Shown here piece by piece: positions 49,477 to 61,953 of a DNA stretch of 64,000 nt (positions are counted from its first letter, which is position 1; the number at the start of each line of letters is the position of its first letter). Source of the DNA: an uncultured Pelagibacteraceae bacterium (GTDB lineage: Bacteria > Pseudomonadota > Alphaproteobacteria > Pelagibacterales > Pelagibacteraceae); contig CACNFB010000002.1 in assembly GCA_902619665.1 (NCBI GenBank), positions 91,113 through 155,112 on the forward strand. The letters run 5' to 3'. Made by a program: the position numbers and the translations under genes. Below the pieces are notes generated by a model that saw nothing but the letters and a program-made list of their open reading frames with translations, was not told the origin of the DNA and ran no database searches.

Positions 49477-50001
49477 ATGTTTGAATTATACGTCATGAGG
49501 CACGCAAAATCCAGTTGGGAAGATTTGAATATTAATGATTTTGATAGACCGCTGAATAAAAGAGGTAAAAAAAGTGCAAAAAAAATTTGTGAATTTTTTG
49601 TTAAAAGAAAATACAGATTTGAATTTGCTTTGATATCATCAGCTAAAAGAACCCGAAGTACTTTTGAAATTTTGTCAAAAGGAATTCCTGAGCCAAAAAC
49701 AACAGAATATTCAAAGAGTTTATACTTAGCAGATGAATTTACAATTATAAATAAAATTAAAAAAATATCGAGTAACTACAAATCAATTTTATTAATAAAT
49801 CATGAACCCACAGTTAAAAATTTAGTAAGGTATCTAACCAAAAATCATGAAACCAATAATTTCAAATTAATGAATTATAAATTTCCTACAGCTGCATTTG
49901 CTTTAATTAATTTTGATATTAAAGGTTGGGACGAAATAGAAAAAAAAGGAATGTTAAAAAAATTTATAAGACCCAAAGATCTTCAAGACTCTAAAGAATA
50001 A
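49477..50001 (+). CDS. sixA: SixA-like phosphohistidine phosphatase; start at MFELYVMRH
   Basis: ELYVMRHAKSSWEDLNINDFDRPLNKRGKKSA (RHG motif), LLINHEPTVKNL. Confidence 0.9.
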   Translation: MFELYVMRHAKSSWEDLNINDFDRPLNKRGKKSAKKICEFFVKRKYRFEFALISSAKRTRSTFEILSKGIPEPKTTEYSKSLYLADEFTIINKIKKISSNYKSILLINHEPTVKNLVRYLTKNHETNNFKLMNYKFPTAAFALINFDIKGWDEIEKKGMLKKFIRPKDLQDSKE

Positions 50002-50666
50002 CCTGCAGATCTAACCGTTCTAATTAAAGGTTTTACGTTTTCAATATTTATAGCTTGTCTTAATCTTCTAATATGGACATCTACAGTTCTAGACTCAACG
50101 TATATATTCTCTCCCCATACATTGTTTAAAAGCTGTTCTCGTGAATAAACTCTTTTAGGATTTTTGATAAAAAAATCTAAAAGTTTAAATTCAGTTGGGC
50201 CTAAAGTAATTTCTTTATCTTTTCTATAAACTCTTTTTGTAATCCGGTCTATTTTTAAATCAGTAAATTCTACAATATCTGATGATGATTGAGGTTTAGA
50301 TCTTCTCAATAAAGATTTAATTCGAGCATTCAATTCTTTTTGACTAAAAGGTTTAGTCACATAATCATCTGCACCAGTATCAAATGCTTTTAATTTGTCC
50401 TCTTCCTCCCCTTTTGCAGTTAACATAATGATAGGAATATCATTAAACTTATTATTTTTTTTTAAATTTTTACAAATTTCAACACCAGATAATTCAGGTA
50501 ACATCCAATCCATTAATATTAAATCTGGGTGTTTTAATTTTATTTGTTTAAGAGCATCTTCTCCATTTTCTGAATGACTAACTTTATAACCTTCTTTTTC
50601 AAGATTATACTTTAACAAACTAACAATTGATGCTTCATCTTCAGCTATAAAAACATGAGCTGACAT
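49983..50666 (-). CDS. phoB: Phosphate regulon response regulator PhoB
   Basis: DLILMDWMLPELSGVE, GADDYVTKPFS, winged-helix SREQLLNNVWGENIYVESRTVDVHIRRLRQA; co-located with pst. Confidence 0.95.
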   Translation of the reverse strand: MSAHVFIAEDEASIVSLLKYNLEKEGYKVSHSENGEDALKQIKLKHPDLILMDWMLPELSGVEICKNLKKNNKFNDIPIIMLTAKGEEEDKLKAFDTGADDYVTKPFSQKELNARIKSLLRRSKPQSSSDIVEFTDLKIDRITKRVYRKDKEITLGPTEFKLLDFFIKNPKRVYSREQLLNNVWGENIYVESRTVDVHIRRLRQAINIENVKPLIRTVRSAGYSLES

Positions 50667-54870: not shown

Positions 54871-55902
54871 TTAATTACCCATAGCAACTAGCTTCGTAGC
54901 ATTAGTTCTAGTTGTTTTATACAACTTAGAGTCTAATGGCACCAAACCAATGTCTGCTAGATAACCACCTTTTCCTATAGCTTTCTTAGTTGTGAATTCT
55001 TTCACAAACTCATGTAGGCCTGGAATTACTCCAACGTGGGCTTTTTTCACGTAAAAGAATAAAGGTCTAGCAACAGCATAACTGTAGTCTTGAATAGACT
55101 TCAATGATGGTTGTCCACCATCAATACTTGCTGCTTGTAATTTATCTTTTGCAGCTAGGAAATAACTGAAGCCAAAGAAACCAAACATTTCTTTATCTTG
55201 AGTTAACTTTTGGATGATTAAACTATCGTTTTCTCCTACTTCAATAGCAGCACCATCTTCTCTGTAAAGTTTTTGAGGTTTTTTGTATTTTTTATTTCCA
55301 GCTTCAAAACCAGCTTTATAAAGAGCTTTAGCTTCTTTAGTCATACCTTTTTTCATTACTAAAGAATTCCAAGCATCTCTAGTTCCTGATGTTCCTGGTG
55401 GGATCATCACTGAAATTTTTTGTTTTGGTAAGCTAGGGTCAATTTGATCCCAAGTTTTATAGATATTTGGAACTAATTTACCATCAACAACTGTATGAGC
55501 GGCTAGTGCTAAGTATAATTGTTCTTTTGTAAAGTTTACTGGTTTTGCATCTTTACTGTAAGCTAATGTAATACCGTCGTTTCCAATTACGATTTCAACG
55601 ATATCATTAACACCATTTTTCTTACATAGTGCTTTTTCTTTATCTTTCATAGCTCTTGATGCATTTGTAATATCTGGATGTTGTTCACCTACACCAGCGC
55701 AAAATAGTTTAGCTCCACCACCAGTACCAGTAGACTCAATAACAGGAGTTTTAAATCCTGAACCACCAAATCTTTCAGCAACAACAGTCGCATAAGGGAA
55801 TACCGTAGAAGAACCAACTATCTTAATTTGATCTCTTGCTTGAGCAACAGTTGCTATTGATAAAGCAACTAATGAAGCAATTATTATAGTTAGTTTTTTC
55901 AT
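54871..55902 (-). CDS. pstS: Phosphate-binding periplasmic protein PstS; start at MKKLTII
   Basis: IKIVGSSTVFPYATVVAERFG, ESTGTGGGAKLFCAG, PPGTSGTRDAWNSL. Confidence 0.96.
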   Translation of the reverse strand: MKKLTIIIASLVALSIATVAQARDQIKIVGSSTVFPYATVVAERFGGSGFKTPVIESTGTGGGAKLFCAGVGEQHPDITNASRAMKDKEKALCKKNGVNDIVEIVIGNDGITLAYSKDAKPVNFTKEQLYLALAAHTVVDGKLVPNIYKTWDQIDPSLPKQKISVMIPPGTSGTRDAWNSLVMKKGMTKEAKALYKAGFEAGNKKYKKPQKLYREDGAAIEVGENDSLIIQKLTQDKEMFGFFGFSYFLAAKDKLQAASIDGGQPSLKSIQDYSYAVARPLFFYVKKAHVGVIPGLHEFVKEFTTKKAIGKGGYLADIGLVPLDSKLYKTTRTNATKLVAMGN

Positions 55903-55971
55903 TATCTTTAATCCTTTCATTATTTATTAATTAAAAGATGACAGACTCGTATAAATTTATTGAATCTTTAA

Positions 55972-56000
55972 TATTACAGAATTGTTACACTTTTGTTAAA
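55972..56000 (-). promoter_or_regulatory. Pho-box-like triple direct repeat upstream of pstS
   Basis: Minus strand TTTAACA-AAAG-TGTAACA-ATTC-TGTAATA, three heptamers with 11-bp phasing. Confidence 0.65.
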
Positions 56001-56733: not shown

Positions 56734-57879
56734 CTAAGTTTTTGTTGGTAAATAAATCTGAACTTCAGTTCCTTTATTTTCCTCACTTAGAATCTCATAA
56801 TGTCCACGATGTTGAGTAACAATATGTTTAACAATAGCTAATCCTAAACCAGTTCCACCAACCTTGTTACTTTGTTCAAGATCTACTCTAAAAAATCTTT
56901 CTGTAATTCTAGAAATATATCTTTGGGGAATACCAACACCTTCATCTTTAATACTGATCATAAAATTTTTTTCTAACAATTTACCAACACTAATTTTGCT
57001 TGATATAAAAATAGACTTGTTTTCATTTGAATACTTAATTGCATTATCTAAAAGATTAGAAAAAACAGTTTGTAATTTTTTTTCATCTCCAATAACAATT
57101 GTTGGATTTGCGAGAGATAAATTAATATTTAATTTCTTTTTTTTTAAAACAATTTCAAAATTACTGATGATTGTTTTGAAAAGATCATTTATATTAACTA
57201 AAGAGTTTGGCCTTATGTGTTCTTCTAATTCAATTCTTGTGAGTATTAGAAGATCATTAATTAAATTTTCCATTCTATTTGATTGATCAGTCATTATTTT
57301 CATAAATTTTTTTTTAGCCTTTTCATCATCAGACGCTGGGCCCTCAATTGTTTCTAATGATCCTTTGATTGCCATTAAAGGTGTTCTTAATTCATGGCTT
57401 ACATTAGCGACAAAATCAGTTTTAAATTTTTGTGCTTTTGTAATTTCAGTAAAATCTTTTAAAAATAACACAACAGAATCTGGTTCAGTAAATAAATGAG
57501 TTGGACCAGGAATAATATAAATTTTATAAAATTGATATGATGGGAGGTCTATTTCAATGTCAATATTTTTTGTTTTATTTTCAACTATAGCTTTTTCAAT
57601 ATTTTCTATTAATTCTGGCTTTCGAATTACAGCAGATATGTTTTTATCAACTAAACTACTTCCAAATCTTTTTAATGCACTTGGATTAGCATATTTAATT
57701 ATATTAAATTTATTTAATGCGAAAAACTGATCTTCAAGCTCGTCTATAATTACTCTTTTTGTTTTTTCCTCTCTTTTATTAACTATTATGGCAGTATTTA
57801 TTGGTTTGTTTTTTTTTTGATTAAGTAAATATAGGAGATAAATTATAACAATTACAAGTAGGATGACTAAATATTCCAT
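56734..57879 (-). CDS. phoR: Phosphate regulon sensor histidine kinase PhoR
   Basis: KTDFVANVSHELRTPLMAIKGSLET H-box, DEGVGIPQRYISRITERFFRVD, GTGLGLAIVKHI. Confidence 0.93.
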   Translation of the reverse strand: MEYLVILLVIVIIYLLYLLNQKKNKPINTAIIVNKREEKTKRVIIDELEDQFFALNKFNIIKYANPSALKRFGSSLVDKNISAVIRKPELIENIEKAIVENKTKNIDIEIDLPSYQFYKIYIIPGPTHLFTEPDSVVLFLKDFTEITKAQKFKTDFVANVSHELRTPLMAIKGSLETIEGPASDDEKAKKKFMKIMTDQSNRMENLINDLLILTRIELEEHIRPNSLVNINDLFKTIISNFEIVLKKKKLNINLSLANPTIVIGDEKKLQTVFSNLLDNAIKYSNENKSIFISSKISVGKLLEKNFMISIKDEGVGIPQRYISRITERFFRVDLEQSNKVGGTGLGLAIVKHIVTQHRGHYEILSEENKGTEVQIYLPTKT

Positions 57880-57941: not shown

Positions 57942-58949
57942 CTAATGGTTAGGTGAAATATTGTTAAAAAATATTTTTGCTGTTTCTTCCCAAGTGAATT
58001 TTTTTGCAAATTCAAGACAATCATTTCTATCAACTTTTAAAGCTTTTTGGGCTGAAACTTTAAGATTATTGTCTAAACAATTTATTTTGGATCCTTCAAA
58101 TATATCTTTAGGACCTGGAACAGGATACGCTGCAACAGGTGTTCCACAATTTAAAGCCTCGGTAACCACAATTCCAAATGTATCTGTTTTACTAGGGAAT
58201 ACAAAAACATCGGAGGATGCAAAATGTGATGCTAATTCACCGTTGGTTTTTTCTCCTAAAAAAATATCTTTAGGGAATTCTTTTTTTAATTTTTTTAAAT
58301 CAGGTCCTTTTCCTATTATTATTTTTGTACCTTCTAAATCACATTCTAAAAAAGCTCTTATATTTTTCTCAACTGCAACTCTTCCAACATAAATCCAAAT
58401 TGGTCTTTTGTGGGGTAAATCAATTTTTTTAGGGTTCTTAAATGCTCCGTGATTTCCACCTCTGGTCCAAGTAATCATTTTATTATCATCTATACCTATA
58501 TTAATTAATTCTCTTCTCATAGACTCTGTTGTTACTAAAATTCTCTCAGCCTTATTATGAAAATTTGCTAAAAATTTTTCAGCCCATTTTGCAGGTATAA
58601 TTGGAAAATATAATTTAAGATATTTATCAAACCTTGTATGAAAACTTGTAGTAAACTTTAGATTATTCTTTAAACAATATCTTCTTGCCATAGTTCCTAT
58701 AGGACCTTCAGTAGCGATATGAATTGCATCAGGTTTTATTTTTTTTATCAAACTACCAACTCTTGGCCAAACATTAATAGATAATCTAATTTCATTATAT
58801 TTGGGCATCGGAAAAGTTAAAAATAAGTCTGGAGTGATATATTCTACTAAATGACCCTGTTTTTTTAAAACTTGCCCTGTTTCATGAAGAGTTCTTACTA
58901 CACCATTAACTTGAGGGAAATATGCATCTGTCGCAATTAAGATTTTCAT
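57942..58949 (-). CDS. agt: GT4 glycosyltransferase, Agt-like (diacylglycerol glycosyltransferase of the PlcP-Agt pathway)
   Basis: DAYFPQVNGVVRTLHETGQVLKKQGH, FVFPSKTDTFGIVVTEALNCGTPVAAYPVPGP; directly downstream of plcP-like gene. Confidence 0.82.
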   Translation of the reverse strand: MKILIATDAYFPQVNGVVRTLHETGQVLKKQGHLVEYITPDLFLTFPMPKYNEIRLSINVWPRVGSLIKKIKPDAIHIATEGPIGTMARRYCLKNNLKFTTSFHTRFDKYLKLYFPIIPAKWAEKFLANFHNKAERILVTTESMRRELINIGIDDNKMITWTRGGNHGAFKNPKKIDLPHKRPIWIYVGRVAVEKNIRAFLECDLEGTKIIIGKGPDLKKLKKEFPKDIFLGEKTNGELASHFASSDVFVFPSKTDTFGIVVTEALNCGTPVAAYPVPGPKDIFEGSKINCLDNNLKVSAQKALKVDRNDCLEFAKKFTWEETAKIFFNNISPNH

Positions 58950-58952
58950 TTT

Positions 58953-59801
58953 TTAAGATGCTTTTTTAAGATTTTTTGTTTTTAAAGTTTGTGAAATTTC
59001 CTCATTATTGAAATATTTATCTCTTATTTTATCCCAATAAATAATTTCGAATTTTCCATTGTAATTTTCTACTAATGCGGTGCATGACTCAACCCAATCA
59101 CCACAATTAAGATAATTTATTCCATTAAACTCTTGATCTTCCGCATGATGAATATGACCACAAATTATTCCATCATATTTTTTGTTTTTTGCATAATCTG
59201 AAAGTGTTTTTTCATATTCACCAATATATTTTACTGCATTTTTAACTTTATATTTTAAGAATTTAGCAAGTGACCAGTAATCTTTGCCTCTTAATTTTCT
59301 AAAGAAATTTATAACCACATTAATTCTTAGTAATAAATTATAAGCAACAGATCCAATTTTAGATAACCATTTAGCGTGTTTCATTACCCCGTCCCACGCA
59401 TCACCATGTACAATTAAATATTTTTTTCCTAAATTAGTTTCGTGAACAATTCTATTTAACATGTGTATGTCACCAAAATTCATAGGAATAAATTTTCTAA
59501 ATAATTCATCATGATTGCCTACTATGTAGAAAACTTTAGTACCATGTCTTGCTTTTCTTAATATTTTTTGAATTACGTCATTATGTTCTTGAGGCCAATA
59601 AAAATTTTTTTGCATCGCCCAAACATCAACAATATCTCCAACAAGATAAAGATTTTCTGATCTAGAGTTTTTAAAAAATTCTAAAATCTTACTTGCCTGA
59701 CACCCCTTTGTTCCAAGATGTAAATCTGAAATAAATATACTTCTATACTTTAATAAAGGTGATTTATTTGTCATATAAACTTGTTTTATTTTTTGATTCA
59801 C
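58953..59801 (-). CDS. plcP: Metallophosphoesterase, PlcP-like phospholipase C
   Basis: IFISDLHLGTKGCQASKILEFF, GDIVDVWAMQKNFYWPQEHNDV, GNHDELFRKF, ICGHIHHAE. Confidence 0.82.
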   Translation of the reverse strand: MNQKIKQVYMTNKSPLLKYRSIFISDLHLGTKGCQASKILEFFKNSRSENLYLVGDIVDVWAMQKNFYWPQEHNDVIQKILRKARHGTKVFYIVGNHDELFRKFIPMNFGDIHMLNRIVHETNLGKKYLIVHGDAWDGVMKHAKWLSKIGSVAYNLLLRINVVINFFRKLRGKDYWSLAKFLKYKVKNAVKYIGEYEKTLSDYAKNKKYDGIICGHIHHAEDQEFNGINYLNCGDWVESCTALVENYNGKFEIIYWDKIRDKYFNNEEISQTLKTKNLKKAS

Positions 59802-59837
59802 TTATAAGTAGAAACATAATTATCTTGTACATAATAA

Positions 59838-59855
59838 TGTTACAGAATTATTAAA
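59838..59855. promoter_or_regulatory. Pho-box-like element in the plcP / DAG-kinase divergent gap
   Basis: Plus TGTTACA-GAAT-TATTAAA (minus TTTAATA-ATTC-TGTAACA); shares TTACAGAATT with the pstS element. Confidence 0.5.
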
Positions 59856-59857
59856 TT

Positions 59858-60748
59858 ATGAAATTTTGTTTGATATATAATAAAAAATCTGCCGGTGGAA
59901 GAAAGACTAATTTTATTAAGAAGATTGTTTATGAAATTCGAAAACAATACCAGGTTGATTTTTTTGAGACAAAAAGTGAGAACCAAGCATCAGAAATAAT
60001 AAAAAATATCCCAAAAAATCAATATAACAGATTATTATTAGCTGGTGGAGATGGGTCAGTTTCATTTGCTATTAACGAACTTATAAAAAATAATTTTAAT
60101 TTTAATAAAGATTTTGCAATTGGATATATTCCAGCAGGAACAGCTAACATTCTACAAGCTGAATTGGGTATGTCTAAAAACATTAAACAAATTGCAAAAA
60201 CATTAACCTCAAATAATTTTAATAAATCTAATTTAATGAAAATAAATGAAAAACATTTTGTTTTGATGGCAGGATTAGGATGGGATGCTCAAATAGTTCA
60301 ATCAATTAATTCCTCGATTAAAAAAATAATGGGAAAATTAATATTTGGTATTAAAGGTTTACAAAAATTTTTATTTATGAAGAATAATAAAATCAAGATA
60401 TTTATCGATAATGAAACTATTTATGCAGATTGGGTTCTATGTACAAATAGCAAATATTATGCAGGTCATCATTCAATAGCAAAAACAAATATCTTTGATG
60501 ATAAAGTTGTTACATACATCTTTGAAAACTTAAATCGATTAAAATTATTATATTACATATATTTAGTAGCTATTTATGGTAATTTAGAAAAATCAAAATC
60601 AGTGATTACAAAATATGATGATAATATTAAATTTGAAGGTATGAATAGTAAAATACCAGTGCAAATTGATGGTGACAATTTTGGTAATTTCAAAGAAGTT
60701 TTAATTTCAAAATCAGAAAAAAAAATAAATATATTAAAGTCTGCTTAA
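59858..60748 (+). CDS. Diacylglycerol kinase-family lipid kinase
   Basis: IYNKKSAGGRK, LLLAGGDGSVSFAINEL, IPAGTANILQAELG (DAGK catalytic domain). Confidence 0.88.
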   Translation: MKFCLIYNKKSAGGRKTNFIKKIVYEIRKQYQVDFFETKSENQASEIIKNIPKNQYNRLLLAGGDGSVSFAINELIKNNFNFNKDFAIGYIPAGTANILQAELGMSKNIKQIAKTLTSNNFNKSNLMKINEKHFVLMAGLGWDAQIVQSINSSIKKIMGKLIFGIKGLQKFLFMKNNKIKIFIDNETIYADWVLCTNSKYYAGHHSIAKTNIFDDKVVTYIFENLNRLKLLYYIYLVAIYGNLEKSKSVITKYDDNIKFEGMNSKIPVQIDGDNFGNFKEVLISKSEKKINILKSA

Positions 60749-60750
60749 TA

Positions 60751-61953
60751 CTATTTTACCCTACCATATACATCCTGATATCTAACAATATCTGTTTCTT
60801 TAAGGATTGAGCCTATTTGTGCTTCAATAATTTTTACCGGTTTTTTAAATGGATTTTCAATTCTATGAACAGCTCCTAATGGAATATAAATAGTTTCACC
60901 AGGTTTCTTTAAGAATTTACTTTTATTTAGAGTAATTCTTGGAATTCCATGAGTAACTACCCAATGTTCTGATCTATGAAAATGTTTTTGAAGACTTAAA
61001 ATGCCTTTAGGTTTAACAAATAATTCTTTAATTAAGAATTCTTTGCCTTTAAATAAGTTTGTGTAGCTGCCCCATGGTCTATGAAATACGTTTTTCTTTT
61101 TAAAGTATTTATTTTTAATCTTTCCATACATTTTGCAGATTTCTTTCCAGCTCCCTAGATCTGACCATGAAATATCAAGCTTGATCGCATTAATATTTTT
61201 AGTTTTTTCTAGTATTGCATAATCAAAAGATTTTGCTGTAGTTTTAGAAAACGATTGTTTATTTAAATAATACACATTGCTTTTATATTTAGCTTTTATT
61301 ACAGCTTTTTTACAGTTTCGAAAAATATTAGGCTGATATTTCTTAAAATTATTAATAATTGAGTCTTTTCTCAAAAAAAACATCCCAGAGTTCCAGTATC
61401 CTTTTTGTCTAATTATTTGTTTTGCTCTCGATGTTTTAGGTTTTTCAATAAATTTGGTGACTTTATTAATACTCTTTTTTTTCTTAGTAATGAAATATCC
61501 ATACTCACTAGATGGACTTGTTGGCTTTATGCCAAATATAAATATATTTTTTTCATCTAAATTTGACTTATTTTTATTAATAGCTGTAATTAATTTGTTA
61601 GGCTTTTCAATTAAATGATCTGCAGTAAAATACATTAATGGCTGATTATACGGTACATCTTTAATTAATGCTGATGCTAAAATTGCTGGAGCAGTATTTT
61701 TTTTTGCTGGTTCTAAAATAATTTTATATTTTGTAATTCTGCTTTTCTTTAAAGCTTTTTTTACATCCTTAATATACTTTGAATTAGTGCTTATAATTGG
61801 ATAATCAAAAACTTTACTTTTAACTCTTTCAAAAGTTTTATTAATTAAAGTCCAGCCTCCAAAATCTATGAATTGTTTTGCTTGATGATTAGATTTTTTG
61901 GGCCAAAGTCTAGTACCTGCCCCACCGCATAAAATAACCGGTCTAATTTTCAT
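60751..61953 (-). CDS. Mannose-1-phosphate guanylyltransferase with C-terminal cupin
   Basis: PVILCGGAGTRLWPKKSNHQAKQFI, FIEKPKTSRAK, FHRPWGSYTNL, LSLQKHFHRSEHWVVTHG. Confidence 0.92.
   Translation of the reverse strand: MKIRPVILCGGAGTRLWPKKSNHQAKQFIDFGGWTLINKTFERVKSKVFDYPIISTNSKYIKDVKKALKKSRITKYKIILEPAKKNTAPAILASALIKDVPYNQPLMYFTADHLIEKPNKLITAINKNKSNLDEKNIFIFGIKPTSPSSEYGYFITKKKKSINKVTKFIEKPKTSRAKQIIRQKGYWNSGMFFLRKDSIINNFKKYQPNIFRNCKKAVIKAKYKSNVYYLNKQSFSKTTAKSFDYAILEKTKNINAIKLDISWSDLGSWKEICKMYGKIKNKYFKKKNVFHRPWGSYTNLFKGKEFLIKELFVKPKGILSLQKHFHRSEHWVVTHGIPRITLNKSKFLKKPGETIYIPLGAVHRIENPFKKPVKIIEAQIGSILKETDIVRYQDVYGRVK

Follow-up and report, generated by a model that had tools for sequence, protein, structure and literature searches.

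A putative PhoB operator facing plcP-agt in a Pelagibacteraceae genome, and two regulatory layouts of plcP and dgk that appear to have been exchanged between close relatives

Replacement of phospholipids by glycolipids is the way in which SAR11 bacteria lower their phosphorus need in the phosphate-poor gyres. The arrangement of plcP followed by agt has been described for SAR11, and putative Pho boxes were inferred in plcP clusters in the same work (Sebastian et al., PMC4796936); the PlcP enzyme of SAR11 HTCC7211 was found by others to complement a plcP mutant. The locus studied here resembles the type 2 plcP context of that work in its gene order and its putative Pho boxes, and the proposal of a Pho box before plcP in SAR11 is as such not new; the divergent dgk gene was not treated there, nor was the question of how many boxes the plcP/dgk gap contains and where they lie (PMC4796936). 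A DAGK_cat protein, a metallophosphoesterase and a group 1 glycosyltransferase figure among the HTCC7211-only SAR11 clusters over-represented at BATS, in the phosphate-poor Sargasso Sea (PMC3686209), and thus include genes of the dgk/plcP/agt type, although that comparison concerned gene abundance and not regulation. The phosphate islands of HIMB59 similarly bring together Pst, PhoBR, a diacylglycerol kinase, an LpxH-like phosphoesterase and an RfaG-like glycosyltransferase, but in a different lineage and without operator analysis (PMC10734472). As for the operator, the PhoB Pho box of E. coli (CTGTCAT-N4-CTGTCAT) and of alphaproteobacteria is an 18-bp, 7-4-7 direct repeat with an 11-bp period found before pstS and other phosphate genes and near phoB/phoR, all of which holds for the locus described below; in contrast, the half-sites here are AT-shifted (TKTAAYA), pstS carries three of them in tandem, and the box is known here from sequence. 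Finally, the dgk product shares the DAGK_cat domain with the soluble DgkB/YegS lipid kinases, from which it departs in its motifs. Provisionally, we found no description in the open-licence literature of the two regulatory layouts reported here or of their exchange between lineages.

The DNA analysed, hereafter the window, is a 64,000-nt stretch of contig CACNFB010000002.1 from an uncultured Pelagibacteraceae bacterium [Table 1]. A sequence-only reading of it had proposed a plus-strand Pho motif at 59838-59855, sharing a 10-mer with the pstS upstream region, as one operator common to plcP and dgk in a gap of 56 bp. The plus-strand letters at these positions are indeed TGTTACAGAATTATTAAA, and the 10-mer TTACAGAATT is present both there and upstream of pstS (55974-55983), but the Pho-box reading of the element lies on the minus strand and points towards plcP. 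The gap was also found to be wider. The figure of 56 bp depended on a GTG start at 59801, whereas relatives favour the ATG at 59774 (MTNKSPLLKYRS compared with MPNLLKYRS, with an in-frame stop immediately before it in relatives), so that plcP and dgk lie 83 bp apart. The plcP product combines a metallophosphoesterase fold with the plcP-agt context, and LpxH models matched it below cut-off only; it is predicted to hydrolyse phospholipids to diacylglycerol. PhoB is encoded in the genome, its TIGR02154 score lying above cut-off.

Table 1. Positions of the elements and genes discussed in the text (window coordinates).
Feature	Position	Strand	Basis or remark
Pho box of plcP-agt, TTTAATA-ATTC-TGTAACA (two 7-bp half-sites, 11-bp period, aimed at plcP)	59838..59855	-	pstS-only matrix and conservation
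Half-site TGTAACA, promoter-proximal for plcP	59838..59844	-	matrix; heptamer also in pstS triple repeat
Half-site TTTAATA, distal	59849..59855	-	pstS-only matrix
Candidate dgk promoter TTGTTT-N16-TATAAG, with GANTC site 59795-59799 in spacer	59781..59808	+	consensus match; shared by most members of the window's clade
pstS Pho box, upstream pair TTTAACA-AAAG-TGTAACA	55983..56000	-	22.7 bits; conserved in relatives
pstS Pho box, downstream pair TGTAACA-ATTC-TGTAATA	55972..55989	-	23.8 bits; one half-site common to both pairs, three in tandem
pstS, start MKKLT as in relatives	54871..55902	-	PF12849
plcP, calcineurin-like phosphoesterase, predicted PlcP-type phospholipase C	58953..59774	-	PF00149 E=2.3e-12; plcP-agt order; ATG at 59774
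agt, GT4 glycosyltransferase, 3' of plcP, apparent operon	57942..58949	-	PF13439/PF00534; synteny in named loci
phoB response regulator	49983..50666	-	TIGR02154 PhoB 329 bits, cut-off 296
phoR-like histidine kinase	56734..57879	-	TIGR02966 282 bits, below cut-off 334; HisKA/HATPase_c
dgk, DAGK_cat lipid-kinase-like protein, divergent from plcP	59858..60748	+	PF00781; DgkB 2qv7

Four copies of TTACAGAATT occur in the window against 0.69 expected, and as many were seen in one of 100 shuffles; the 10-mer alone is too common to be other than weak evidence, and an extended copy elsewhere in the genome falls within a coding frame. A weight matrix was therefore derived instead, with its training set limited to pstS promoters of same-genus genomes (11 sequence variants). 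Every one of these presents three half-sites at 11-bp spacing, e.g. TTTAACA-AAAC-TGTAACA-ATTC-TGTAATA; the distance from pstS boxes to pstS is 69 bp, or 51 bp to an upstream ATG. Scored with this matrix, the minus strand at 59838-59855 yielded 20.1 bits and ranked third among the ~128,000 positions of the window, behind the two pstS pairs and ahead of an unrelated fourth site at 14.5 bits. Its score of 20.08 was reached in none of 200 dinucleotide shuffles of the window and in one of 20,000 shuffles of the gap. The element thus has the structure of a Pho box, with a 4-bp spacer between its 7-bp direct repeats, and matches the pattern of other phosphate-gene promoters, namely that of pstS and, in relative G054, that of a phosphonoacetaldehyde hydrolase gene (TIGR01422 above cut-off), which is preceded there by tandem TKTAAYA-N4-TKTAAYA boxes (L198 1501-1529). 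Its half-sites agree with the E. coli heptamer CTGTCAT at five (CTGTAAC) and four (ATTTAAT) of seven positions, that consensus being the E. coli one and the Pho-box consensus varying between species (review PMC4415409). In the 979-kb genome, the relaxed pattern TKTAAYA-N4-TKTAAYA has five matches, three of which are the two overlapping pstS boxes and the plcP box. Background matches occur in other genomes, the reversed control being similar or slightly lower in several, so that the argument rests on the matrix, on conservation and on positions. The motif is usable for finding more members of the SAR11 regulon. It counts against the reading as a PhoB operator that some genes with a Pho box show no phosphate response and that clear regulon members may have no box (review PMC4415409).

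plcP was found in 18 of the same-genus genomes searched, each with a dgk relative (18/18, two being cut by contig ends), and one further genome of the genus carries dgk at a contig end with plcP beyond view. Eighty named loci were fetched with the dgk alignment, and in all of the 78 that reach plcP the two genes are divergent and the gap between them contains a plcP-oriented box (43 distinct sequences), with the proviso that relatives within one genus are non-independent samples. Among the 20 sequences of the window's own clade, the half-sites do not differ at any of their 14 bases, whereas the spacer varies at three of its four, as would be expected for a tandem-repeat operator. The box also keeps its distance from plcP: it lies 63 bp from the plcP ATG in the window and 58-64 bp in all sequences with a correctly called start (L146 and L155, for which a nearer in-frame ATG had been taken automatically, and L113, for which none was given, are left out of this range), and other Pho boxes in the set stand about 50-70 bp upstream of the gene served. 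One could still ask whether an AT-rich genome might produce such an element by chance or through its composition, given how common the 10-mer is by itself and how close the relaxed pattern comes to its reversed control in several relatives. The shuffles, the presence of the box in every gap and its agreement with the pstS and phosphonatase promoters speak strongly against this, and we regard an origin by chance as hardly credible. The conserved pstS-type box before plcP instead points to phospholipid turnover being tied to PhoB, as the sequence-only reading had it. In the other family (f2), plcP-agt occurs but has no dgk next to it, and most members show a weaker box, at about 10.7 bits.

The part assigned to dgk in that reading found no support in this genome. 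A single operator at which PhoB would activate both plcP-agt and dgk is suggested by the location of the box between divergent genes, by the co-occurrence of dgk in virtually all same-genus genomes with plcP, and by E. coli divergent pairs reported to be served by one common PhoB site (PMC3465305). The box, however, has a direction, and in the window only 2 bp separate its edge from the dgk ATG; this distance is 1-2 bp across the window's clade (clade A), 7 bp in clade C and 19-20 bp in clade B, compared to 58-67 bp for the boxes that face plcP or dgk. Since the DAGK_cat domain of the dgk product begins at residue 2, the dgk start cannot lie further downstream, and with its edge so near that start codon the box cannot place bound PhoB at the -35 position for dgk. 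Where dgk does look PhoB-controlled, moreover, it has a box of its own: clade B gaps contain another box, which faces dgk (TTTAATACAACTGTAACA, TTTAACACAACTGTAACA or TGTAACACAACTGTAACT), scores 16-19 bits and ends 66-67 bp before the dgk ATG. Such a dgk-directed box is present in 11 of 17 same-genus genomes and absent from the other six, the window's genome included, and was counted in 20 of the 78 named loci. None was found in clades A and C, where dgk-sense scores are mostly near or below zero (L113 reaching 8.4), and none lies at promoter distance in the gap of the window, where the best dgk-sense score is -1.9. A shared operator is accordingly improbable. As the box abuts the dgk start codon and faces away from it, we consider it probable that 59838-59855 is the PhoB operator of plcP-agt and is not an activating operator of dgk in this genome.

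On this preferred reading, in which the box would serve plcP-agt, phosphate starvation would load phospho-PhoB onto the minus-strand tandem half-sites, where the bound regulator would stand in for a -35 element and recruit sigma70 polymerase towards plcP; PlcP would then cut phospholipids and Agt would turn the diacylglycerol released into glycolipids. By eye, only weak AT-rich candidates for a -10 hexamer (TACAAG and GATAAT) are seen ~10-11 bp downstream of the box; no strong -10 hexamer occupies the expected spot 3' of it, and a generic promoter scan returned no fitting site there. dgk, for its part, would be transcribed in the window from a separate promoter further upstream, the candidate being TTGTTT-N16-TATAAG. 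This arrangement or near variants of it recur in most clade A sequences with GATTC in the spacer, a resemblance to consensus only. It is absent from the output of the generic scan, which demands a final T in the second hexamer and which returned 14 sites where 11.4 were expected, hence no excess.

If dgk is read from a separate promoter, its expression would either not depend on PhoB or be held back by PhoB bound in its leader. The sequence is best read as a lack of coupling between PhoB and dgk in this genome, or perhaps as a block of dgk by PhoB. The second of these options would amount to opposite control, the PhoB-bound box activating plcP-agt while blocking dgk, such that released diacylglycerol would be directed to glycolipid and not to phosphatidate. 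Were dgk to start at the TATAAG-type promoter (59803-59808), the box would indeed fall within its leader, 2 bp from the ATG; phosphorylated Pho regulators are known to repress as well as to activate (review PMC4415409), and the metabolic logic, as we infer it, is favourable. The two-box relatives, on the other hand, suggest co-induction, and the box may stand beside dgk simply because the gap is short. We hold opposite control possible, in a tentative way. The reading of the box as an operator for plcP-agt that does not activate dgk is common to both options. In the two-box relatives, plcP and dgk are probably both induced. The fate of diacylglycerol, whether glycolipid or recycling to phosphatidate, depends on the timing of dgk expression, and two layouts of the same three genes, apparently swapped between close relatives, offer a direct and testable natural contrast.

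The comparison of these relatives revealed a sharp mosaic at window 58850-60740, where the plcP-gap-dgk segment diverges between genomes whose flanks are ~90-95% identical. In an alignment with L143, the identity of the window is about 90-95% across phoR and the larger part of agt, 72-87% in plcP, 64-70% over the gap and dgk, and 86-95% again directly after dgk. In the dgk tree, layouts A, B and C each form one clade (starred support); in the agt tree, in contrast, A and B are intermixed, and layout A requires four changes, two of them forced by starred branches. It appears that recombination has carried the dgk allele, along with its regulatory layout, from one lineage to another. Most simply, homologous recombination would have replaced the stretch that runs from plcP to dgk, regulatory layout included. 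Carried further, one box would turn plcP-agt on and dgk off here, the exchangeable two-box segment of sister lineages would turn both on, and recombination would toggle the re-phosphorylation of diacylglycerol in starvation; we consider this extension speculative and rather unlikely.

The dgk product is, by sequence, a DgkB-type lipid kinase. It scores 82 bits with PF00781 against a gathering cut-off of 23.6, and a profile search returned DgkB as the best solved relative (2qv7, E=4e-19); with TIGR00147, the model of the YegS/Rv2252/BmrU subfamily, it scores 90.8 bits, below the curated cut-off of 118.65. GGDGS and IDGD are invariant in the family where the usual motifs are GGDGT and DGE, the latter C-terminal in DgkB, which suggests altered catalysis or an altered substrate. 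The predicted structure was poor (mean pLDDT 67, pTM 0.52), and although a fold search with it placed DgkB-type kinases first, their TM-scores were about 0.3, so that the search adds nothing beyond the sequence match.

A few further observations were made in and around the locus. A Pho-like match at 61297-61314 (minus strand, 14.5 bits) falls inside the manC-like coding sequence of the next gene and was taken as a coincidence; in some relatives a copy sits at the same place. One relative has an additional Pho-box copy just 3' of dgk, beside a short insertion between dgk and manC (G029:C3:53545-53562). Every plcP/dgk gap contains at least one GANTC (CcrM-type) site (window 59794-59826; gaps of L083-L162), and most clade A gaps show an inverted pair, GATTC-N11-GAATC, around TATAAG. 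A GcrA-type extension of this site, YGAKTCK, has been reported for Caulobacter; most of the gap sites fit it, whereas the copy in the window, TGATTCA, does not. Genes for GcrA and for an N6/N4 methyltransferase similar in size to CcrM are present in the genome, and a cell-cycle input to dgk is possible. A GATTC likewise lies ~5 bp downstream of the pstS Pho box in most same-genus genomes (window 55940-55970).
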